DNA from: Candidatus Omnitrophota bacterium
GTDB taxonomy: Bacteria > Omnitrophota > Gorgyraeia > Aquiviventales > Aquiviventaceae
Direction of reading: 5' to 3'
Assembly (NCBI GenBank): GCA_020057015.1
Contig: JAGVGS010000083.1
Location: 1 to 37,742, forward strand
Length of the DNA: 37,742 nucleotides
A program made the translations under genes and the position numbers. Every line of letters starts with the position of its first letter. Position 1 is the first letter of the stretch. The notes below the pieces were generated by a model. The model did no database searches and was not told the DNA's origin. It saw nothing but the letters and a program-made list of their open reading frames with translations. Shown piece after piece: positions 25,438-37,742 of this stretch.

Positions 25438-26290
25438 CAGTAAATGTCCGAAATTTGGTTGCCAGGCGCTTCCGCGAGAACTGCGGATGCAATTCAGCCC
25501 GCTCCAACCGTTTGGCCACTGGAACGACGCCTGCGGCGGCAAATATTTCATCCCACTGCGGCGCGCGCAACCGGTTCGTCCACGCGCTTCGCCGGCTAGT
25601 CATAGACTCCCAGAGCTTGTTAGAGTATCGCAGGAACCGGAGCCAGTCCATGTCCTTTCCGAAGGTGTAATGGTCGCGCAGGTCGATGATGTGGCACATC
25701 ACGCCCTCCGGCCGAAGCACGCGGCACATCTCGTTGATGAGTTCGGTAGGAAACCGCACATGTTCTAGCACGCTCTTCGACCAGATGATATCGACCGAGT
25801 TGTCAGGCAGTGGGATTGTTTGTCCGTCATATAATGAGAGCTTCAAATCATCCTCTGAGATGCTGGCCTGACCCTCGTATCTGGAAAGCCGCAGACCGGA
25901 ATCGCTGGGCAGCTGGCCTGTGGCCAGGCGCGCGGCGATCCATTCCCGCGTTGCGGTGTACGTCCAAACACGGCGCACCGATTCAGAAAGATACGGGACA
26001 ACATCAACGCCAACAGCCCGGCGCACACCGTAGAGCAAGGCGGCGAACAGGAGGTCGGGCGTCTGGCCTGGCCCCAGCTCAAGCAGCACTTGTCCTTGCA
26101 GTTTGCCGCCCGCCTCCAGTGTCATGGACAACAGTTCTCCCAAAACTGGGGCGATCTTATCCGGATCGCGCCCCAATCCTGTGTGGTGAAATCGCCGGGC
26201 AGAGGATCTGACCACCGGAATGCCCATGAGAGCGTTCTGCACGACATGCCGCGTGGGCGAATCCAGCAGTAGCTCACGGATGGCATTCAT
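25388..26290 (-). CDS. Class I SAM-dependent methyltransferase (Methyltransf_11-like)
   Basis: GQVLLELGPGQTPDLLFAALLYGVRRAVGVDVV, LPDNSVDIIWSKSVLEHVRFPTELINEMCRVLRPEGVMCHIIDLRDHYT. Confidence 0.88.
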   Translation of the reverse strand: MNAIRELLLDSPTRHVVQNALMGIPVVRSSARRFHHTGLGRDPDKIAPVLGELLSMTLEAGGKLQGQVLLELGPGQTPDLLFAALLYGVRRAVGVDVVPYLSESVRRVWTYTATREWIAARLATGQLPSDSGLRLSRYEGQASISEDDLKLSLYDGQTIPLPDNSVDIIWSKSVLEHVRFPTELINEMCRVLRPEGVMCHIIDLRDHYTFGKDMDWLRFLRYSNKLWESMTSRRSAWTNRLRAPQWDEIFAAAGVVPVAKRLERAELHPQFSRKRLATKFRTFTDEELCVAWYRAVHRAP

Positions 26291-27546
26291 GACACGATTA
26301 CCCGGTGGGGCTCCGCGGTTTCCCGGAACAGCTCCGTAACGGCTCCAGCGGGTTCAGGGTCGCCCAATGACACTCGAGGCGCTGCGAGGGACTGCCCAAG
26401 CTGCCTATCGATCCCTCGCCCTCGCTCTTCAAGAGCCTCGAGAAACAGTGCTTCATATTGCGGAACGATCACGCGCATGTCAAACCGTGCGCTGGATGCT
26501 TGGCCAGCGACGGCGTACCGATGGCGCGTGTCAGGATCGACCGCTAGCCTCTTAATCGCCTGCGCTAGCTCCTCGGCCGACTCGGGCGCACATAACAGCC
26601 CATCCACCCCATCAACAATGATTTCCTCTGGCCCTGAAGGGCATCGCGTCGCCACCACCGGTGTGCCGCACGCCATCGCTTCCACTATGACATGCCCGAA
26701 TCCTTCCCACCGCGATGAGAGCACGAACAGATCCGCCCGTGCCATCCACGCAAACGGATTCGCTTGTGCACCGGCAAACACCACCCGCGGCTCGATGCTC
26801 AGCTGCCGCGTAAGAGCACGCAACGATGAGCTTTCTTCACCCTCCCCGATGATAGTCAGACCCCATTCGATCCCCTTCAAGCGAGCCGCCGCTTGCAAGA
26901 GCACATCGAATCCTTTCTGACGCACCAGCCGTCCGACCGCAACCATCTCAAACGGCCGGCGAGCACTCAAGTCTGCCAACCTACATCCTAGTGGGATGTC
27001 CGCGATGAGCCGCCGAATGGAATCGCGATCCACCGGATTATAGATGACTCGAACGCGTTTCGGTGCCAGGCTATTTCGCGCAATGCAATCTATCGCAACT
27101 CCGCGTGAGAGACAGACGACACGATCGGCCCGGCGATACGCAGCAGCCGTCAGCCAATCACTCAGCGTAGCGGGCTGACGACCCGCGGCGGTCTGATGAT
27201 TGGCCTCGCGCACAATGGTTACGGGTCGATAACCCGATAGCCGCTGAGCCAGGATGACCGCGGCGTTGGGATACAAGAGTGTTGAAAACAGCAGATCCGG
27301 CTTGTGCCGACGAATCAATCGAGCCAGTCGCCCCACTAACTGCCGAGCACGGTGTATCTGCAGGTTGAGCACCTCTACGTCGTCGCGCAACCACTGGCGG
27401 TACTCGCCAGTCTCCTGATACAGCGCCAAGACGGGTGTGAATCGATCACGATCGAGCCCATTGACGATGTTCAGGACGGTACGTTGCGCGCCTCCATATT
27501 CCATGGTTGGAAGCACGAACAGTGCGCGGATGCGGGGAAGCGACAT
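26287..27546 (-). CDS. GT4 glycosyltransferase
   Basis: ALFVLPTMEYGGAQRTVLNIVNGL, VVCLSRGVAIDCIARNSLAPKRVRVIYNPVD, VAVGRLVRQKGFDVLLQAAARL, LFVLSSRWEGFGHVIVEAMACGTPVVATRCPSGPEEII. Confidence 0.94.
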   Translation of the reverse strand: MSLPRIRALFVLPTMEYGGAQRTVLNIVNGLDRDRFTPVLALYQETGEYRQWLRDDVEVLNLQIHRARQLVGRLARLIRRHKPDLLFSTLLYPNAAVILAQRLSGYRPVTIVREANHQTAAGRQPATLSDWLTAAAYRRADRVVCLSRGVAIDCIARNSLAPKRVRVIYNPVDRDSIRRLIADIPLGCRLADLSARRPFEMVAVGRLVRQKGFDVLLQAAARLKGIEWGLTIIGEGEESSSLRALTRQLSIEPRVVFAGAQANPFAWMARADLFVLSSRWEGFGHVIVEAMACGTPVVATRCPSGPEEIIVDGVDGLLCAPESAEELAQAIKRLAVDPDTRHRYAVAGQASSARFDMRVIVPQYEALFLEALEERGRGIDRQLGQSLAAPRVSLGDPEPAGAVTELFRETAEPHRVIVS

Positions 27547-27552
27547 GGCACG

Positions 27553-29457
27553 CTAGGCTTCGCACCGTAACAGGACTTTGAGCGGCTTGCGGCTCTTAAC
27601 GAGATCCCAAGCTTGCGCATACTGTTCCAGCGGCAAGACGTGCTCTAGCAAGGGTGTCACCGGCAGCTGCGGCAGCAGATGAATCGCCGCCACCATATCA
27701 GCCGCACTGCTTCCCACCGATCCGATCACCATCTTATCGTAGGCCACCACTTGCTCGAATGAGAACTCGCGCTTCCCGTAAGGCAAACCCAGCAACAAGA
27801 GGACTGCCCCCGGGCGGCTACTGCACAGCAGCGTCTCCAGTGCGTTCGGATCGCCCGTCGCCTCGACCAGGACATCAAAGGTATGTAAGCCGCTGGGAGA
27901 ACCCGTCTGAGCCGGTGTGATGCGCGGCTGATGGAAGGCATTGAGCCGATCCGGATTTCGGTCAAACACCGTCACCTCATGGCCTTGATGGGCTAGGACT
28001 TGCGCACACAGATACCCGAGCGGACCTGCACCGACCACTCCGCACCACCGGATACTACCGCTCTTGCAGACCTGCCCGAGCCGTCTGAGGCCCTTGAGGA
28101 CGACAGCCACTGGCTCGCAGAGCACTGCTGTCTTTAAATCAAGGGTCTCGGGCAACTTATGCACGAACCGGCCGGGAATAACGACGTACTCGGCGTACGC
28201 ACCGTCCTTGCCCAGGACGCCAAGCTCCCGTCTCTGGTTGCAGCTAATACCGTTGTCTTGTTTGCATGCATTACACTCCCCGCAACCCTGGATGCACTCG
28301 GCCACCACAAGATCGCCAGGTTGAAGATGCTGAACGTTTGGACCTACCGTCACCACCGTACCAGAAAATTCGTGTCCCGGCACAATCGGGTAAACCGCAC
28401 GTCCGGTCCTGTAGTAGTCCAGCGTGCCATGGAATACTTCCAAATCCGTTGCGCACACACCCACGTATGCCGTTCGAATGAGCACATCGCCCGGTTTGAT
28501 CTCCGGCAAGTCACGCTCGTCCAACGCGGCATGGGAGGCTCTGTGGACTACCACCGCACGATAGGTGCGATCAAAGAAGACAGCGTCACGTTTGCGAGGA
28601 TCCTGCATGACCGCCCCGTCAGCTAGACCGTGGATCGTGCCCAGTACCTTGCGCATTCTAAACATAGCGATGTCGTGTGCCTCAGCACGCAGTCGCCCTT
28701 GGCGGCCGGCCTCCACCAGGTCCCCGAGAAATCGCGTGCTCTCTCGCGCCATCTCAAGCGGGATATGCCGCCGTCCTTTCAGTCCCATCCACTTCGCGGC
28801 CATGGCTTCTCTGTAGTAACGTCGCCGTATTTGGCGCCACGTCTCCTGATGAATGTGGTAGACCGCGGCGTTCGGCTCGTAGAAGATCTGCTGGCCGCGC
28901 GCCACCCAGTACCGAGCCCACTCAATGTCTTCCAAACCTGGCAATGCCTCGTCGAACGGATGCTTATCCCAAAGCTCTCGTCGAATGGCCGAGTTCGCGT
29001 TGTTGGCGAAGCACGCCTCAATGGTAAGAAGCCTTGGCTCTGGCCCGAACGTCCGATTGAAATCCTGCCCTTCTGAAAAGTTCGACTCAGGGGCCCCCAC
29101 CTGCCGTCCGTACACCATCGCCGTGTCCCGCTGACGCAACGGCTCAATAAGTTTCTCCAACCAGTGGGCGTCCAGCGGCTTGGTATGAGCTGAGACGATG
29201 GTAAGGAAATGGCCCAAGCTGTGGCGGATACCAACATTAAGTGAGTACCCGAACGTAAAGTCCCGGCTGGCAATGCGGATCAGCTTCGCGCCAAAGCGCT
29301 CGACGATCTCAGGTGTTCGATCGTACGAACCGGAATCCACCACGAGGATCTCAAAGGATTGGTACGCTTGCGCCCGAATCGCCTCCAGGAGCCCTGGCAG
29401 GCAACGCTCTTCATTGAATGCTCGAATGATGATGGAGCTCTCAACCGTCCGGCTCAT
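27553..29457 (-). CDS. Bifunctional fusion: N-terminal GT2 glycosyltransferase + C-terminal zinc-dependent MDR alcohol/polyol dehydrogenase
   Basis: GT2: SSIIIRAFNEERCLPGLLEAIRAQAYQSFEILVVDSGSYDRTPEI, FLTIVSAHTKPLDAHWLEKLI, ALPGLEDIEWARYWVARGQQIFYEP. MDR: IRTAYVGVCATDLEVFHG, VPGHEFSGTVVTVG, structural Zn motif CGECNACKQDNGISC (C-x2-C-x2-C-x7-C), Rossmann VVGAGPLGYLCAQVLAHQGHEVTVFDRN. Confidence 0.93.
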   Translation of the reverse strand: MSRTVESSIIIRAFNEERCLPGLLEAIRAQAYQSFEILVVDSGSYDRTPEIVERFGAKLIRIASRDFTFGYSLNVGIRHSLGHFLTIVSAHTKPLDAHWLEKLIEPLRQRDTAMVYGRQVGAPESNFSEGQDFNRTFGPEPRLLTIEACFANNANSAIRRELWDKHPFDEALPGLEDIEWARYWVARGQQIFYEPNAAVYHIHQETWRQIRRRYYREAMAAKWMGLKGRRHIPLEMARESTRFLGDLVEAGRQGRLRAEAHDIAMFRMRKVLGTIHGLADGAVMQDPRKRDAVFFDRTYRAVVVHRASHAALDERDLPEIKPGDVLIRTAYVGVCATDLEVFHGTLDYYRTGRAVYPIVPGHEFSGTVVTVGPNVQHLQPGDLVVAECIQGCGECNACKQDNGISCNQRRELGVLGKDGAYAEYVVIPGRFVHKLPETLDLKTAVLCEPVAVVLKGLRRLGQVCKSGSIRWCGVVGAGPLGYLCAQVLAHQGHEVTVFDRNPDRLNAFHQPRITPAQTGSPSGLHTFDVLVEATGDPNALETLLCSSRPGAVLLLLGLPYGKREFSFEQVVAYDKMVIGSVGSSAADMVAAIHLLPQLPVTPLLEHVLPLEQYAQAWDLVKSRKPLKVLLRCEA

Positions 29458-30458
29458 CGCACGATCGAACGTGCCTGCTTCGACGCTTGCGTGGACGATG
29501 ATTCTTCCAGACCGGCAATGAGGTTGTGAATCGTCTGCTCATGGACTCGCTCAACTGCCTCCACCGTGTTATAGGCGTTGTGGGGGGCGAGGAGCACGTT
29601 TGGAAATCGGCGCAATGGGCTCGTTGCCGGCAGCGGCTCATCTTCGAAGACGTCCAGCGCGGCCCCGGCGATCCGGCGCTGCTCCAATGCTTCTCCCAGT
29701 GCTCGTTCATCCACAATTGGCCCGCGGGCCGTATTGATCAGCACGGCGGTTGGCTTCATAGCGCGCAGTTGATATTCTCCAATAAGGTGAAAGCTTGTTG
29801 GATTCAGGTCGCAGTTAAGGCTGACGTAGTCTGACTGGCACAGGAGCTCATCTAGCTGCACCATCGTTAGCCCCATCTCCTGGCAAAATGACCTGTCGAT
29901 CTCTCGGATATCCCGCCCCAGCAGACGCAAGCCGAAAGGCCGTGCCCGTTGCACCACTTCCCGCCCGATATCTCCAATCCCGATAACGCCGAGGGTCTTC
30001 CCCCGCAGGCTTACGCCTGGAAGTTGCTCCCATTTGCCCTGCCGCATGAGCGCATCGACCTGATGCACCGGCCGCGCGAAACAGAGGAGATAGGCCATGA
30101 CGACATCGGCCGCGGCATCGCTGAAGGCGCCCGGACTGTTACAAACGCGGATCCCGCGACGTCTGGCTGCCTCTCGGTCAATGGCGTCCACCCCAACCCC
30201 CCACTTGGAAATCACTTTTAGTCGCGTGGCGCGCGCCATGATCGGCTCTGTAATCGGATCATCGCTGCAGACGACTCCGTCCACGGTTTCGTCCATGAAT
30301 GTGAGCATTTCTGATTCCGAAAACCGGTGCCCCCCCTCTGGGACAATTACTTCAATCTTCCGCTCCGCCAGCAGCGGGAGAAAACGCGGCAGGATACGGC
30401 GAATGTGGACTGATGCGATGAGCACTCGCCACCGGGCGGGCGGCGTTACGCCTGCCAT
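29454..30458 (-). CDS. D-isomer-specific 2-hydroxyacid dehydrogenase (phosphoglycerate dehydrogenase-like)
   Basis: VISKWGVGVDAIDREAARRRGIRVCNSPGAFSDAAADVVMAYLL, LGVIGIGDIGREVVQRARPFGLRLLGRD, LINTARGPIVDERALGEAL, ALDVFEDEPLP, NVLLAPHNAYNT. Confidence 0.93.
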   Translation of the reverse strand: MAGVTPPARWRVLIASVHIRRILPRFLPLLAERKIEVIVPEGGHRFSESEMLTFMDETVDGVVCSDDPITEPIMARATRLKVISKWGVGVDAIDREAARRRGIRVCNSPGAFSDAAADVVMAYLLCFARPVHQVDALMRQGKWEQLPGVSLRGKTLGVIGIGDIGREVVQRARPFGLRLLGRDIREIDRSFCQEMGLTMVQLDELLCQSDYVSLNCDLNPTSFHLIGEYQLRAMKPTAVLINTARGPIVDERALGEALEQRRIAGAALDVFEDEPLPATSPLRRFPNVLLAPHNAYNTVEAVERVHEQTIHNLIAGLEESSSTQASKQARSIVR

Positions 30459-31231
30459 CGGGACTTCGCAGCCTCCAGGTACTGCGGCACAAGCGGATCG
30501 TCTGTCAGGGCTTGCTCAACCCGTCGCACATCGTTGGGTACGTCCACGCTGATCGTTGGACGGTCGACGGCAAATGTGTGAATCTTGTAGCCGTGTTCTA
30601 GAATGCGCAGGATATCGACTGACTCGGCCTGTTCCAGTGGCGTCTGCGCAAGGCACGTGTAAGTCTGGAGGAAGTCACGGCGGAAACTCAGCACGACGAC
30701 AAGTTGGCGCTTCTGGATGCCTGATTCACCCAACCGCACGGTAGTCGGAATAGGTTCCCGTGACATGAAGAGGACTGCACCCTGTTGGTCGGTCACCACT
30801 TTGATGACGTTGCGGTTGCGGAATGTCTCGCCATCCTCGATGGGAGCAAGGGGGTGAGCGCACACCACAGCCGGGTCTTCCGCGAGCATCCGGACTCCGC
30901 CGTTCACGAGTTCCGGGTACAGCATGGGCTCATCACCCTGGATATTGACGACGACGTCGGCCGCCTCGTGGATTGCCGCCGCCGCCTCCGCGACCCGGTC
31001 CGTGCACCGCTCATGATTGGGCGATGTCATAATGACCGGCGCGCCGTAGCTCTCCACTACATCGCGGATTGCAGGATCCGGTGTGGTGACATATACCGCG
31101 TCTAGCGTCTTGCACAACCGTGCGCGGAAGTAGACGTGGAGAACCATTGGTAGTCCCAGTATCGGCACGAGCGGCTTGCCTGGAAACCGTGAGGAACCCA
31201 TGCGCGCTGGAATGAGACCGATGGCTCTCAT
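30446..31231 (-). CDS. KdsB-like CMP-sugar (3-deoxy-manno-octulosonate-type) cytidylyltransferase, divergent
   Basis: IGLIPARMGSSRFPGKPLVPILGLPMVLHVYFRA, MTSPNHERCTDRVAEAAAAI, VVNIQGDEPMLYPELV, NVIKVVTDQQGAVLFMSREPIPT, TISVDVPNDVRRVEQA. Confidence 0.88.
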   Translation of the reverse strand: MRAIGLIPARMGSSRFPGKPLVPILGLPMVLHVYFRARLCKTLDAVYVTTPDPAIRDVVESYGAPVIMTSPNHERCTDRVAEAAAAIHEAADVVVNIQGDEPMLYPELVNGGVRMLAEDPAVVCAHPLAPIEDGETFRNRNVIKVVTDQQGAVLFMSREPIPTTVRLGESGIQKRQLVVVLSFRRDFLQTYTCLAQTPLEQAESVDILRILEHGYKIHTFAVDRPTISVDVPNDVRRVEQALTDDPLVPQYLEAAKSRWQA

Positions 31232-32292
31232 CGACGGCCTCTCACGCCACTCATCGTGTGGCCGCGCCTGGTAGCCGCTCGCCTCCTGGCGATGCGTACG
31301 TCCTTCACTTCGCGGGGTGCGCCGCCCAGCAGCGTGCGCAGGTAGTCCGCACTAGCCTGCCATTCCTTTTCTTCATATTCCACGACGTTCCTCGGGGCTT
31401 GTCCGCACTCATGCGGTGTACGATAGTCCTGACCTGTAGGCTGAGCGTGCTCCAGCACAAATTTCATGACCTCGGCAACCTGCGCGGCCGGCCGTGCAGG
31501 GTACTCTGGCCAGAAGTCCGATTCCAGCATTCGGACGTGCCTGGCCTCCAACGCGCCAATCTCGAGGCTGGCCCACTCTGCGCGACCGTGCCGCTCGAGC
31601 AGCCCTATAAGCTCCGGGAACGGTATGACCCCGTGACCGACCGGACAGCGTACCAAACGGTAGCCGGACTCGCTCAGGAAAATTCGATAGTCTTTCAGGT
31701 GGACGTGCTTGATGAAGGGTGCGATCCGCTCGGCAAAGGCGAGTGGCAACTCCACAACGGAGAGCGCATTCGCCGTGTCCAACGTTACCCCGAACCATGG
31801 GCTATTAATCGTCTCGCACAGCCAGACCAACTCCTCGGAAGTGAGGTCCTGGTGGTTCTCGACCGCAAGTGGAATGTTCTGCCGCTCGGCCTCTCGCACC
31901 GCCCGAGCTAAGCGGTCCCTAACGGTCTCGAGAAATGACTTCCAGGTCCCGATGAACTCCCGCCGGTCCCCTCCAAATTTCGCACCGCCTACGACCGTTC
32001 GCACCACCGCGCATTCCATCACCCCCGCCGCCTGCAAAGTTCGGATGAGACGACCCGGGTCGACTCCCTCCGTCGAAAGCACCATCCGTAGCTGGTGCTC
32101 ACGGGCAACATCTCTGAGCATGATCCAGTGTCGCTCGTCTTGGAGGTCCACGAGGGCCGCCGGCAGCTCTACACCTGGGAATCCTCGCGAAGCCGCCTCT
32201 CGAATCACCGCCTCAGCGCTGCGGCGCTCAGCCCCTTCAGGCAGCCAACCGAACGTATAGAGCGAGCCGTAGATATTGAAAAGCAGCTTCAT
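31228..32292 (-). CDS. Sugar phosphate isomerase/epimerase, xylose-isomerase-like TIM barrel
   Basis: REAASRGFPGVELPAALVDLQ, PLAVENHQDLTSEELVWLCETINSPWFGVTLDTANAL, IKHVHLKDYRIF, WASLEIG: metal-ligand pattern of AP-endonuclease family 2 barrels. Confidence 0.87.
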   Translation of the reverse strand: MKLLFNIYGSLYTFGWLPEGAERRSAEAVIREAASRGFPGVELPAALVDLQDERHWIMLRDVAREHQLRMVLSTEGVDPGRLIRTLQAAGVMECAVVRTVVGGAKFGGDRREFIGTWKSFLETVRDRLARAVREAERQNIPLAVENHQDLTSEELVWLCETINSPWFGVTLDTANALSVVELPLAFAERIAPFIKHVHLKDYRIFLSESGYRLVRCPVGHGVIPFPELIGLLERHGRAEWASLEIGALEARHVRMLESDFWPEYPARPAAQVAEVMKFVLEHAQPTGQDYRTPHECGQAPRNVVEYEEKEWQASADYLRTLLGGAPREVKDVRIARRRAATRRGHTMSGVRGRR

Positions 32293-33107
32293 GGCGCTTT
32301 TACTGAGTCCAGCAGTTCTTTGGTGGCTCGCTCGTACGCTACGTGCGGCATCTGCACGGAGAACTTGCCCCCGCTGATATCAATGTGCGCCCCTGTAATA
32401 TAGCCGGACAGCTCACTCGACAGGAAGACCACCAAATTCGCAATGTCACTGGCCTGCCCCCAGCGCCGCAACGCGAGCGTGTTCAGGAGCCGTTCTTGGG
32501 TTTCGGGCGGCGCTTCGGCGAAGTGGTTGAGTTGGGTGGGAATCATACCCGGCGCGTAAGAGTTAACCGTGATGTTATAAGGGCCAAGTTCGGCGGCCAG
32601 CACTCGGGTTAGCGAAACAACCCCGGCCTTGGAGGCAGCGTAGGCTGAGAAACCCGCTGAGGGTACAATCGCCGCGAAGGAGGACGCATTGATGATCCGG
32701 CCTGAGCACTGCCGCTTCATGATCGGAATGACGGCCTGACTACAAAGAAAAACTCCTTTCAGATTCACATCGAGGTTATCATCCCAGGCGCGTTCATCGA
32801 ACGACTCGACGAATCCGCTCGGGGCGACTCCAGCGTTGTTCATGAGAATATCAAGACGCCCATAGCGTTCCGCCACAGTGCTCGTCATCTGGCGCACATC
32901 GTTGCGTACACGGACATCGCAGCGGAGTCCCTGGCCTTCAAGTTTTCGGCTCTGGAATTCTGCCTGTAGCCCCTTAGCGAGAGTCTCGTCAATATCCACT
33001 CCAATCACGACGACCCCTTCCTCCGCTAGCGTCAAGGCAATCACACGACCGATGCCCTGACCCGCACCGGTTACAATCGCGACTTTCCCGTGTAGGTCAA
33101 TCTGCAT
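32289..33107 (-). CDS. SDR-family oxidoreductase (FabG / gluconate-5-dehydrogenase-like)
   Basis: KVAIVTGAGQGIGRVIALTLAEEGVVVIGVDID, LMNNAGVAPSG, NASSFAAIVPSAGFSAYAASKAGVVSLTRVLAAELGPYNITVNSYAPGMIPT. Confidence 0.92.
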   Translation of the reverse strand: MQIDLHGKVAIVTGAGQGIGRVIALTLAEEGVVVIGVDIDETLAKGLQAEFQSRKLEGQGLRCDVRVRNDVRQMTSTVAERYGRLDILMNNAGVAPSGFVESFDERAWDDNLDVNLKGVFLCSQAVIPIMKRQCSGRIINASSFAAIVPSAGFSAYAASKAGVVSLTRVLAAELGPYNITVNSYAPGMIPTQLNHFAEAPPETQERLLNTLALRRWGQASDIANLVVFLSSELSGYITGAHIDISGGKFSVQMPHVAYERATKELLDSVKAP

Positions 33108-33131: not shown

Positions 33132-33875
33132 TTAGGGCATCCATAATCCGCCATTCACCGGAATCGTCACTCCGGTCATGTATGCACTTTCCTCCGAGGC
33201 AAGGAAGGCTACGGCCTTTGCCACCTCCTCGGGCATGCCGAGACGGCCTAACGGAACTCGTTGCACCAACGCACGCAGTGCCCGGCGAGGAAATGCACGC
33301 GCCATGTCGGTGTCGATAATACCAGGAGCCACACAATTGACTCGAATCCTAGAGCTGGCCAGTTCCTTGGCTAAATATTTTGTGAGACAAATAAGCCCGG
33401 CCTTCGACACGGCGTAATGCGCTCCCACAAAAGCACCCCCGGTCTGGCCGGCCTGGGAAGCGATCATCACAATACTTCCACACCGCTGGGATGTCATGAT
33501 GGGTGCGACCCGTTGGCAGCACAAAAATGCCCCACGCAGATTGACTGCCAGCACTGTATCCCATTCAGCCACGCGAAGGCGCTGAAACGGCGTGACAGAG
33601 GCGATTCCTGCATTATTGACGAGCACATCGATCCGTCCCCAACGATGTTTGACCTGTGCAACCAGCCGTGCCACTGCCTCCGGACGTGCGACATCTGTCT
33701 GAATCGTCACCACATCTCGGCCAAGAGCCCGGATGCACTGTGCCACTGCTCTGGCCTCATGCGCCAGGCTGCGGTACGTAATGGCAACATCAAACCCGAC
33801 TTCCGCTAGCCGGATGGCACACGCGCGCCCGATCCCGCGAGAACCTCCAGTCACCAAGGCAACCCTGTTCCTCAT
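33132..33875 (-). CDS. SDR-family oxidoreductase (FabG-like)
   Basis: MRNRVALVTGGSRGIGRACAIRLAEVGFDVAITYRS, VLVNNAGIASVTPF, MIASQAGQTGGAFVGAHYAVSKAGLICLTKYLAKELASSRIRVNCVAPGIIDTDMA. Start refined to 33875 (ATGA overlap). Confidence 0.93.
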   Translation of the reverse strand: MRNRVALVTGGSRGIGRACAIRLAEVGFDVAITYRSLAHEARAVAQCIRALGRDVVTIQTDVARPEAVARLVAQVKHRWGRIDVLVNNAGIASVTPFQRLRVAEWDTVLAVNLRGAFLCCQRVAPIMTSQRCGSIVMIASQAGQTGGAFVGAHYAVSKAGLICLTKYLAKELASSRIRVNCVAPGIIDTDMARAFPRRALRALVQRVPLGRLGMPEEVAKAVAFLASEESAYMTGVTIPVNGGLWMP

Positions 33876-34843
33876 GTGAGCGACGCCATCACCTCGCACT
33901 CGAGGGAAGCTCTAGGAGCCAACTGCCCGCACGTACCCTGCCGCTGAGCCTGACGCAAATCTTTTGGGATGTTTGTGCATGGCTCCAGGACCACCGTATA
34001 GTGGCTGCGCCAGCCACCCAGTGCCATGAAGATCCACACGTAAGGAAACACGCGCATGGGAAAGTTGAGGGTGAAGCGCGCACCGGTGACGCCATCCTCC
34101 ACCCCGCACCACCCAGAAGGAAGTCCGTCGACGTACACAAACTCCTGATGGCGGCTTTCGACCGGCGGCAGGCGGCTCAAATCCCATAGTGTTCCGGATG
34201 GTCCAGGAACGTGTGGCCAGGAAGCAGGTCCCGGCTGGCTCATGATGGTGCTGAATGTCGGATCGACCTGCATTACGCGCCCTCCTGGCAAAAGCACCCG
34301 GTCCTGTGGCCGCACAGCCAGCGCTGGATGGAGCTTGAACAAAAATACCTGCGGCTCATCCGTCAGGTTCGTAATGCGATACCGTATCTTCACCACCGCC
34401 TCGTCATCGAGAAGCTCCACCCATTTCTCGTAGCGGAGCGGTAGCGCACGACCGGAGCACCATAACCGAATCCCTGTGCAGTTCGACCCTGGCAGTTGTT
34501 CATACGCCCACGCCTGAGACCACCACTCGCCGTGATCAGGAAGCGCGCGTCCGTTGAACTCACCAGCGGCATCGTTCGGAAATAGCTCCTCCCAACCTCC
34601 CCCCCAGTTGTCGTCATAGGAGGCACCGTAGTCAACCCGGCGCAATCCCACTTGGGCGTCTCGCCACAACCATTCCTTGCCCGTAGGCTTGTGCAGAAAA
34701 CTCCAGATCTTGCCGCCGAGTTCCGGCACCACCTGGATGGCGGTCAGCTTATGCTCCAGTCGAATGGTTTCGAACCCATCTACCCACGCGCGGGTCACAC
34801 GTGCGCGGCAACTCGATTGGGTGCTGGATGGCGCGTCAGGCAT
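33872..34843 (-). CDS. Galactose-mutarotase-like (aldose 1-epimerase superfamily / DUF5107-type) protein
   Basis: LEHKLTAIQVVPELGGKIWSFLHKPTGKEWLWRDAQVG, NWGGGWEELFPND, LPDHGEWWSQAWAYEQ, RYRITNLTDEPQVFLFKLHPALAV. Start refined to 34843. Confidence 0.72.
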   Translation of the reverse strand: MPDAPSSTQSSCRARVTRAWVDGFETIRLEHKLTAIQVVPELGGKIWSFLHKPTGKEWLWRDAQVGLRRVDYGASYDDNWGGGWEELFPNDAAGEFNGRALPDHGEWWSQAWAYEQLPGSNCTGIRLWCSGRALPLRYEKWVELLDDEAVVKIRYRITNLTDEPQVFLFKLHPALAVRPQDRVLLPGGRVMQVDPTFSTIMSQPGPASWPHVPGPSGTLWDLSRLPPVESRHQEFVYVDGLPSGWCGVEDGVTGARFTLNFPMRVFPYVWIFMALGGWRSHYTVVLEPCTNIPKDLRQAQRQGTCGQLAPRASLECEVMASLT

Positions 34844-35747
34844 TAGTGCTGGTCGCCTTAGGTCTCGATCTCTCGAGCTCGCAGTCCTCACCCGAGATCG
34901 AATCCAGCCTCCCTAAACCGTTGCTCGCTATACGGTAGGCCGCCACCTTCCAGCATTCATGAAGCCTGGCGCAGTGCTTGTCACAGAGTAGCTTCACTGC
35001 CTGGATGTCGGGCCAGTGATGATCGTCCAGCATCATAACGCTGTTGGAGTGGAGCAGTCCGCAGGATAGGCCGAAATCGAGCAGCGGATTCAACCCCTCA
35101 TGCGAGCCGTCGATGTAGATGAGGTGAAATCGCCGGCCCGCCTGGTGCAGCGCCCGCAGTCCATCGAGGCTGATCATCTCGAGCAGCTCGACCTCAAGAC
35201 CCACCGATTGGTAGAGGCTGAGGGCGAGCTGTCTTGTGCGTTTTGTAATACCGACATGGATGCCCTTTTCCCAGATTCCTTTTGACCCCTCGAAGTAACC
35301 CATATCGAAGTACGGGTCAATGGAGGTGAGCTGGCCAAGCGCGCCCCGCGCCCTCAGCAGGAGACCGATGACGCTCATCGAAAGACCTTGAGCCGAACCG
35401 ATCTCCAGAAAATCCACTGTTCCGAACCGCTCGGCCACATCCAACACGGCGCGTTCAAACGTCTCGACAACCTCCCGCCGCAGCGCATTGCTGTAGAAGT
35501 TCCATCCATGCTGCTCTCCCTGGTGGATTGTCTGAGCATTACCCTGGACGGTCTGGATGGCTTCTTCTGAAAACGGCGCCAGCTTTACAGACGAATAATC
35601 GAGCCCCTTTAACCGCAACAGCTCCCGCTGTCCAGCATCACGCAGAAGCTGCATCTGGACTGCGTGCTTGAGCTTAGTTGATAGCGCGCCGAACCATGAC
35701 GGCGGCGTCTCAGAATTGCGGCAGCGGGCCAACAGCGGATGGCTCAT
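34836..35747 (-). CDS. Class I SAM-dependent methyltransferase (Methyltransf_24-like)
   Basis: VDFLEIGSAQGLSMSVIGLLLRARGALGQLTSIDPYFDMGYFEGSKG, FHLIYIDGSHEGLNPLLDFGLSCGLLHSNSVMMLDDHHWPDI. Start refined to 35747 (ATGA overlap). Confidence 0.8.
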   Translation of the reverse strand: MSHPLLARCRNSETPPSWFGALSTKLKHAVQMQLLRDAGQRELLRLKGLDYSSVKLAPFSEEAIQTVQGNAQTIHQGEQHGWNFYSNALRREVVETFERAVLDVAERFGTVDFLEIGSAQGLSMSVIGLLLRARGALGQLTSIDPYFDMGYFEGSKGIWEKGIHVGITKRTRQLALSLYQSVGLEVELLEMISLDGLRALHQAGRRFHLIYIDGSHEGLNPLLDFGLSCGLLHSNSVMMLDDHHWPDIQAVKLLCDKHCARLHECWKVAAYRIASNGLGRLDSISGEDCELERSRPKATSTNA

Positions 35748-37742
35748 AAAGCGTTTGTCCACACCTTGTCACTGCCCCATTGCTGCTGGTACGTTTCAAC
35801 GGCCGCGCGCAGCGCGACCTCACGCGTCAGGCCCTGCTCGCACGCCTCGAGAAACCATCGGACGAACATCCCAATGCGTCGGGCTGCCTGCCCATCGCGA
35901 AAGGGGTCCAAGTGGGAGAGCATTGTTGATAGATCTCCCACACTGCCTTGCGCTCCACCGGAGACAAAGAACTGCTCGACGGCCTGCCTCAACTGCTCTA
36001 ACTCCGTAAACATGACTTTTGGATTATCCCACTTGGTACTAGCGAACCAATCCTTCATAGGCCCTTCGGTCACCCTGGCAGGATCCCAGAACACCGTCCG
36101 GGCTCCAGCGAGCGCCGCCACGACTCCGCCAGAATTGTACCCTAAGGCCACCACCAGATCAGACGCCCGCGCAGCCTCGTGAACAGAACGATGTCCTTCC
36201 AGTAGGACTGCGCGCCCTTCAGCCATGAGCGCCTGGAGGCGCGCCAAGAATCCCGGGGTGGAGGCAAAGATCTTCGGGGTCGGATGCTTCGGTTTGATGA
36301 GCAATCCGATGCGGGGGTTGGCCTCGGCCCACGTCAACATCGCGTCGTAGAACTGGCGGTGCTGAGTTGAGGAATAGTGGCTCGCCAGGCCTAGCGATCG
36401 ATCGAGGACACCGATCACGCGTGTCGTCTCGCCAAAGCACCGCCGCATCGAGGCGACGCCCTGACTGGTCACCGGTCCGTCCGACAGATGATGAAAGATG
36501 CACCCTGTTTGCAAAATCACTTCCGCGCAGCTGCCCCAGCGATCCGAGACAATGGCTTGGTGCTGGGGCCCCCAGACCCCATAGACCTGGTGTAATGGTA
36601 AGAGCGCCCCACTGGTCGGGTACAGTTGACTCCAGTGGTACCCGAGGCGAATCGCCCCCACAAGATCCGCAGCCAGCGACATCGCGTCAAGGTTCGTCTC
36701 TTCCACACTAAACAGCACTTTGATATGCTCCGCTTCCATAAGCGCCTGCCACCGACGCAGGTGTCCTACCACGTGTGCACATCGAGCGACGTGCCATGCA
36801 GGCGCCATGCTCCGGGGAGCCTTGAGCAGCAGGCGCATCAGCCAGAGTCCGTCGAAGACGGTTCTGCTGATGGGTTGGGCCGGAAAACCCGCGGTGGGCG
36901 TTGTGGCGCTCGCATTCGCATCAGCATAAAGAATCCGGTATCGATAGCCGCCTCGTTGTAAGTGGTCGATGGCCTCATCCGTCGCCTGAGAACGAGCGCG
37001 GTCAAAAAAGATCAGGCATCGCGCAGGAGGCAGTCCGGAAGCGGCATACCACCATAAATCGTTTAATCGATCGGCCTCGCTGCCGAATCCCCACGCGTAT
37101 TCGAGGGCTACCGTCGCAGGCTTCACGGCGGCAACGGAGAGGCCAAACGTCCCCCACGCCTTCAGGCGCTGAGTCACCTGCCACAAGAGATAGAAGCACA
37201 ACCGAGCCACCCTAACCAAGGAGGACGTCCGAACATCGGCATAGCCAAGGAACTGGATCTGGACCGCTGGGCTGAACGATGTCCGAACTGCGTCAGTCAG
37301 GGCAGGGGCTAAGTCGGCCACGTTGGCTAGGACCAGCACCTGTGGCGCTCCGGAAAACAGCTGGCCCTGTTGCTGCGCAAGCAGCCCGAGCAGGATCGGG
37401 TCATAGATCTCCCGCTGCACGAGCTTGCGCCAGAACGCCCGCAGTCGTTGCGGTGCAATCCCGGCTGCAAACTGGGCGAATAAGAACCCCTCCGCTTCCA
37501 GTCGCTGGACCAGGGTGCACCCAACCTGCTGTACGGTGAGCTGTAACCAGTCATAGAGTGAACCCGCAGCGGGCATCTGGCTCGTGAGATCCGGCTCGAG
37601 CCGCTCGACATCGTGGCAGAGCTGCAACCACCGGATGAGGTGCAACCATCGCTCGCCCCAGCAGCCGCTCCGTAGGATCCGGATGGCTGTGACGCGATAG
37701 CGAAGTGACAGCCGCCAGAGCCGCAGACCTGAACAGAAGTTC
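35744..37742 (-). CDS. Putative GT-B-fold surface-carbohydrate biosynthesis protein, N-terminus truncated by window edge
   Basis: Minus frame stays open past the ORF-track TTG start at 37645 to the window edge (NFCSGLRLWRLSLRYRVTAIRILRSGCWGERWLHLIRW...). C-terminal GLLIKPKHPTPKIF, VHEAARASDLVVALGYNSGGVVAALAGARTVFWDPA resembles the C-terminal domain of GT-B polysaccharide enzymes. Confidence 0.7.
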   Translation of the reverse strand, partial: NFCSGLRLWRLSLRYRVTAIRILRSGCWGERWLHLIRWLQLCHDVERLEPDLTSQMPAAGSLYDWLQLTVQQVGCTLVQRLEAEGFLFAQFAAGIAPQRLRAFWRKLVQREIYDPILLGLLAQQQGQLFSGAPQVLVLANVADLAPALTDAVRTSFSPAVQIQFLGYADVRTSSLVRVARLCFYLLWQVTQRLKAWGTFGLSVAAVKPATVALEYAWGFGSEADRLNDLWWYAASGLPPARCLIFFDRARSQATDEAIDHLQRGGYRYRILYADANASATTPTAGFPAQPISRTVFDGLWLMRLLLKAPRSMAPAWHVARCAHVVGHLRRWQALMEAEHIKVLFSVEETNLDAMSLAADLVGAIRLGYHWSQLYPTSGALLPLHQVYGVWGPQHQAIVSDRWGSCAEVILQTGCIFHHLSDGPVTSQGVASMRRCFGETTRVIGVLDRSLGLASHYSSTQHRQFYDAMLTWAEANPRIGLLIKPKHPTPKIFASTPGFLARLQALMAEGRAVLLEGHRSVHEAARASDLVVALGYNSGGVVAALAGARTVFWDPARVTEGPMKDWFASTKWDNPKVMFTELEQLRQAVEQFFVSGGAQGSVGDLSTMLSHLDPFRDGQAARRIGMFVRWFLEACEQGLTREVALRAAVETYQQQWGSDKVWTNAL

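Follow-up and report, generated by a model that had tools for sequence, protein, structure and literature searches.

The window analysed here, 37,742 nucleotides of contig JAGVGS010000083.1 (assembly GCA_020057015.1) from a Candidatus Omnitrophota bacterium, contains on its minus strand a single open reading frame of 634 codons with no internal stop (27553-29457, read from 29457 down to 27553). The encoded protein joins a GT2 (GT-A) glycosyltransferase domain to a zinc-dependent MDR dehydrogenase domain. Its gene belongs to a co-oriented cluster, from two SDR oxidoreductase genes to a GT4 glycosyltransferase gene, in which nearly all members overlap or are a few bases apart. The features are as follows, in the order of transcription.

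33132..33899, minus strand: second SDR oxidoreductase (adh_short_C2, 8.5e-72)
32289..33107, minus strand: SDR oxidoreductase (adh_short_C2, 5.3e-61), 4-base overlap
31228..32292, minus strand: AP_endonuc_2 TIM barrel, sugar isomerase/epimerase-like (Pfam, 3.5e-26), 4-base overlap with the KdsB-like gene
30446..31231, minus strand: KdsB-like CMP-ulosonate synthetase (CTP_transf_3, 2.2e-45; NF009905, 265.6 bits)
29454..30458, minus strand: D-2-hydroxyacid dehydrogenase, 2-HADH (2-Hacid_dh_C, 5.7e-57), 4-base overlap with the fusion gene
28588..29457, minus strand: GT2 (GT-A) glycosyltransferase domain of the fusion, residues 1-290 (PF00535, motif alignment and tree)
28564..28587, minus strand: junction or linker of the fusion, residues 291-298
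27553..28563, minus strand: zinc-dependent MDR dehydrogenase domain of the fusion, residues 299-634 (Pfam, ligands aligned to 2dq4/2dfv)
26287..27546, minus strand: GT4 glycosyltransferase (Glycos_transf_1, 8.5e-42), 6 bases downstream of the fusion gene and in the same transcription unit

The window also encodes, at 35744-37645 on the minus strand, a 633-residue protein without Pfam match that resembles KdsB-adjoining proteins of two other loci (L055 and L036). The C-terminal DPFRDG stretch common to these proteins suggests a capsule-type transferase.

Four Pfam families match the fusion protein, all above their cut-offs: Glycos_transf_2 (PF00535) over residues 8-162 (3.6e-22, 79.5 bits against 23.3), ADH_N (PF08240) over residues 321-437 (1.7e-29, 102.6 bits against 23.5), Glu_dehyd_C (PF16912) over residues 443-619 (5.8e-15, 55.8 bits against 34.9) and ADH_zinc_N (PF00107) over residues 526-595 (1.7e-8, 34.9 bits against 31.8). 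With no stop in the frame, these matches confirm the uninterrupted 634-residue GT2-MDR protein of the initial annotation. The GC3 is even on either side of the junction (0.69 and 0.67). Prediction of the fusion by AlphaFold2 as a single sequence gave a mean pLDDT of 32, and the model was discarded.

A search of 147 relatives returned a full-length homologue in genome G006 (G006:C21:41856-43730), which belongs to another genus of the same family as the organism of the window. It matches residues 5-631 with 50% identity and contains no stop. The GT2 parts are 52% identical and the MDR parts 49%, with a linker that is not conserved (one of eight residues identical). Separate production of the MDR domain from an internal start was considered and rejected, as no internal start preceded by an SD-like sequence is common to both copies. 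The gene order KdsB-like, 2-HADH, fusion is also common to the two genomes, the 2-HADH proteins being 52-53% identical and the KdsB-like proteins 47-48%. The initial annotation had allowed for a misassembly or a lost stop codon; that two genes were joined in this way or on a chimeric contig is hardly credible. The source genome is indeed a draft in 223 fragments with a completeness of 74%, but the same stop-free fusion with the same 2-HADH and KdsB-like neighbours in an independent genome excludes misassembly, and the even GC3 over the junction also speaks against it.

The full-length fusion was found in two of 384 genomes sampled from the class. No further copy was present in a phylum-wide draw of 384 genomes, which partly overlaps the class sample, and among plasmids (72,556 records) and phages (50,697 records) nothing covered at least 80% of the fusion. 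These searches covered chromosomes of this phylum only, together with plasmids and phages. A scan of genome contigs for exact peptides gave distant matches only and lacks the sensitivity needed to demonstrate absence. No description of a GT2-MDR architecture was found in the literature. A real and unusual fusion with a dehydrogenase that looks active is supported by the conserved homologue, the intact ligands and the low frequency in the genomes sampled. The GT2-MDR fusion is genuine, rare, conserved and built of known families.

The MDR domain is complete, as had been noted from the sequence. The catalytic zinc ligands are C335, H362/E363 and E448, the structural zinc site is formed by four cysteines (C392, C395, C398 and C406), and the Rossmann motif GAGPLG occupies residues 476-481. 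All of these align with threonine dehydrogenases of solved structure (2dq4 and 2dfv), and all are invariant in the G006 copy with the exception of L480 in the Rossmann motif. An aspartate past the second Rossmann strand (D499) suggests a preference for NAD. The domain shares the fold, the catalytic zinc ligands, the structural cysteines and the NAD motif with L-threonine 3-dehydrogenase (2dq4, 2dfv), IolM and sorbitol dehydrogenase; unlike these enzymes, with which its identity is low, it is attached to a GT2 domain. As it is at most 35% identical to everything found except the G006 protein, its substrate cannot be read from the sequence. Three assignments were tried against family cut-offs and rejected: L-threonine 3-dehydrogenase (NF003808, 146.1 against 380; TIGR00692, 135.8 against 458), the scyllo-inosose 3-dehydrogenase IolM (142.7 against the NCBIfam cut-off of 450) and galactitol-phosphate dehydrogenase (far under the cut-off). 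Plasmid-borne relatives of the MDR domain sit in catabolic loci for sugar uptake and provide no functional lead.

The GT2 domain had likewise been called complete. It is well above the PF00535 cut-off, but S89-A90-H91 stands in place of the DXD motif (DAD or similar in other GT2s), so that the description needs a caveat. The GLED motif (residues 174-177), which contains the conserved ED near the catalytic base, is kept and is invariant in G006. In a maximum-likelihood tree, the two fused GT2s form one clade with six unfused relatives (support 100/97), namely those of genomes G365 and G305 and plasmid-encoded GT2s of Sulfitobacter D7, Gemmobacter fulvus, Thalassovita gelatinovora and Pararhizobium A13. 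The proteins of G365 and G305 are the nearest GT2s in the class; they are stand-alone and match the fusion at 38-40% up to residue 285-298. Next nearest are GT2s that have a CTP_transf_3 (CMP-sugar synthetase) domain at the C-terminus, from six class genomes (G059, G014, G107, G131, G068 and G298; loci L037:2443-3831, L038:6946-8304, L034:1398-2828, L035:7767-9245, L036:7582-8928 and L060:6112-7473). They belong to the sister clade, the members of which are fused directly to CTP_transf_3 or to NeuB; one of them, in G006, has an N-terminal NeuB domain. In these proteins (L034-L038, L060 and L033) a sister GT2 is thus attached to an enzyme of a donor route, as may be the case in the window, but it is joined to a CMP-sugar synthetase or NeuB instead of a dehydrogenase. 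SAH or SGH replaces DXD throughout both clades. Three related GT2s (G376_a, G364_a and G285_b), beside which no CMP synthetase was recognised, have SAH as well; therefore, loss of the motif alone is no proof of the donor. No characterised enzyme is known from the clade of the fusion.

Other arrangements were seen around these GT2s. A separate CMP-synthetase-like gene lies near the GT2-CTP_transf_3 fusion at every sampled locus but L034. The NeuB-like-GT2 fusion (L033:9683-12673; G006:C21, about 80-83 kb) precedes two CMP-sugar synthetase-like genes in tandem, and a gene of the DAHP synthase family is nearby. At loci L061-L063, two adjacent GT2 genes, one with SAH and the other with TAD or QD, are kept as a pair in three related genomes.

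The loci of the unfused relatives contain a recurrent set of genes. On the Sulfitobacter, Gemmobacter and Thalassovita plasmids, the order is GT2, acylneuraminate cytidylyltransferase, 2-HADH, with an SDR and an SMP-30/gluconolactonase within a few kilobases in Sulfitobacter and Thalassovita. In Pararhizobium A13, the CMP-sugar synthetase, 2-HADH and GT2 genes all lie inside 5 kb. G365 and G305 share the arrangement GT2, cyclase-family hydrolase, CTP_transf_3, 2-HADH, SDR. The GT-A domains of the four plasmid proteins (about 280 residues) are 37-39% identical to that of the fusion, and a CMP synthetase and a 2-HADH are near in each case as in the window; they differ in that the protein stops after the GT2 part, with no MDR attached or found in the loci. 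The initial annotation had proposed to look for the two domains as separate adjacent genes, and none of loci L054, L055, L098, L100 and L101 has an MDR gene beside the unfused GT2; judged by annotation, none adjoins the GT2 of L099 either.

Close orthologues of the 2-HADH were found in four of the 384 class genomes, including that of the window (741, 331, 327 and 283 bits); the next-best match resembles phosphoglycerate dehydrogenase (196 bits). These are exactly the four class genomes that have full-length GT2 relatives, and in all four the 2-HADH gene is a few genes from the GT2 gene. The chance of drawing the same four genomes is about 1e-9 if genomes are independent, a figure that is only a guide because shared ancestry and horizontal transfer break independence. 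The GT2 clade of the fusion is tied to CMP-sugar synthetases and to a dedicated 2-HADH, which is the main clue that the initial annotation missed. A related but distinct recurrent module combines a 2-HADH and a transferase for CMP or NTP with a Gfo/Idh oxidoreductase, an SIS isomerase and an inositol monophosphatase (L105:9001-13895 in Sinorhizobium fredii, L104:4814-9915 in Leisingera and L037:8297-11998). The 2-HADH of the S. fredii and Leisingera replicons is of the type found in the window; the module of L037 additionally has KdsB and an HpcH/HpaI aldolase.

The synthetase next to the 2-HADH gene in the window reaches the KdsB (CMP-Kdo synthetase) subfamily NF009905 (265.6 against 255) but is just under the kdsB equivalog cut-off (TIGR00466, 150.8 against 155.2). 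Unlike an ordinary KdsB, it is a second copy, located within a polysaccharide cluster, and a separate KdsB is encoded elsewhere in the genome.

It is proposed, at a little short of even confidence, that the fusion acts as a bifunctional enzyme in a module for surface polysaccharide, in which a 2-keto-acid sugar (ulosonate) is made, activated with CMP and transferred. The 2-HADH would form or reshape the keto acid, the KdsB-like neighbour would produce the CMP donor, and the GT2 half would move the sugar from this donor onto the growing glycan. The fused MDR would oxidize or reduce a polyol or sugar in an NAD-linked reaction en route to the donor, a step possibly done by an SDR in the relatives without fusion. 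The TIM barrel (31228..32292) and the adjacent SDR (32289..33107) are probable members of the pathway. The fusion, its conservation and the genomic tie of the GT2 clade to CMP-sugar synthetases and this 2-HADH are observed, while the use of a CMP sugar by the GT2, the identity of the acid as an ulosonate, the action of the MDR on the donor route instead of another substrate and its place in the order of steps are all inferred. The proposal is supported by the conservation of the fusion with both flanking genes in another genus, by the equal conservation of both domains with invariant zinc and GT motif residues, by the co-occurrence of the 2-HADH with the GT2 clade, by the CMP-sugar synthetases that adjoin or lie near members of this clade, by the sister clade of CTP_transf_3- or NeuB-fused GT2s, and by the replacement of DXD in both clades. 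Against it, no gene adjoining the fusion was recognised as that of a 3-deoxy-ulosonate synthase or a lactonase-type hydrolase, and the second KdsB could just provide extra CMP-Kdo for a different transferase. The Leisingera and S. fredii module is compatible with the same scheme, starting from a phosphorylated sugar.

The MDR had been suggested to act on the donor precursor or on the transferred residue. The first option fits the neighbourhood, where a KdsB-like CMP transferase, a 2-HADH, SDRs and a sugar-isomerase-like TIM barrel are consistent with a donor route, but the two are not told apart. Under the second, the target of the MDR would be a hydroxyl or keto group on the added residue or the acceptor, oxidized or reduced in a tailoring step on the same protein. 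This would give a direct reason for fusing a dehydrogenase to a transferase and not to a synthetase, and the MDR is missing from the loci of the unfused relatives, as a late tailoring step predicts. However, the closest MDR families (threonine, sorbitol and inosose dehydrogenases) use small soluble substrates and no MDR acting on oligosaccharides was found, which makes tailoring after transfer rather unlikely.

A comparably low likelihood is given to a GT2 with an ordinary nucleotide-diphosphate sugar as donor; the CMP synthetase would then serve another transferase of the cluster, and the association would reflect acidic-polysaccharide clusters in general. Characterised GT2 enzymes are known to take NDP sugars as donors, and the cluster contains several further transferases. 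This reading is difficult to reconcile with the sister clade, in which at least seven proteins have the GT2 directly fused to CTP_transf_3 or NeuB, and with the tight order of GT2, CMP synthetase and 2-HADH in distant bacteria. It is more doubtful still that the fusion only couples expression, the MDR making the precursor of another sugar in this polysaccharide without any link to the GT2 substrate. The MDR has no counterpart in the unfused modules, and co-expression evidently matters in a cluster so tightly packed and co-oriented; but as adjacent genes are probably already co-transcribed, fusion would add little, and it has been retained at 50% divergence.

Within the preferred reading, that of a module for a CMP-activated ulosonate, a more specific and speculative version may be considered, to which only a low probability is attached. 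The ulosonic acid would be made oxidatively and then CMP-activated, not by PEP condensation, through the steps aldose, lactone, aldonate, 2-keto-aldonate (by the 2-HADH) and CMP sugar; the DXD-less GT2 would transfer it, and the MDR would serve as the route's sugar dehydrogenase. The lactonase- or cyclase-type hydrolases of the unfused modules suggest such an oxidative path, with the MDR as one dehydrogenase. Nothing relevant on CMP-hexulosonic acids was found in the literature.

Fusion is a sign that enzymes cooperate, and in two sister clades the GT2 is fused to three partners, an MDR, a CMP-sugar synthetase and NeuB. A dedicated 2-HADH is at or near the GT2 clade in bacteria as distant as the small-genome lineage of the window and the roseobacters. 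Beyond the fusion itself, what is of chief interest is that a GT2 clade without DXD is linked to CMP sugars. This predicts a CMP-sugar donor for a branch of a glycosyltransferase family that is among the largest, and an unusual acidic sugar in the glycans. If true, an oxidative route to CMP-ulosonates would bring in a new class of activated sugars, and the GT2 fold would gain a new type of donor.
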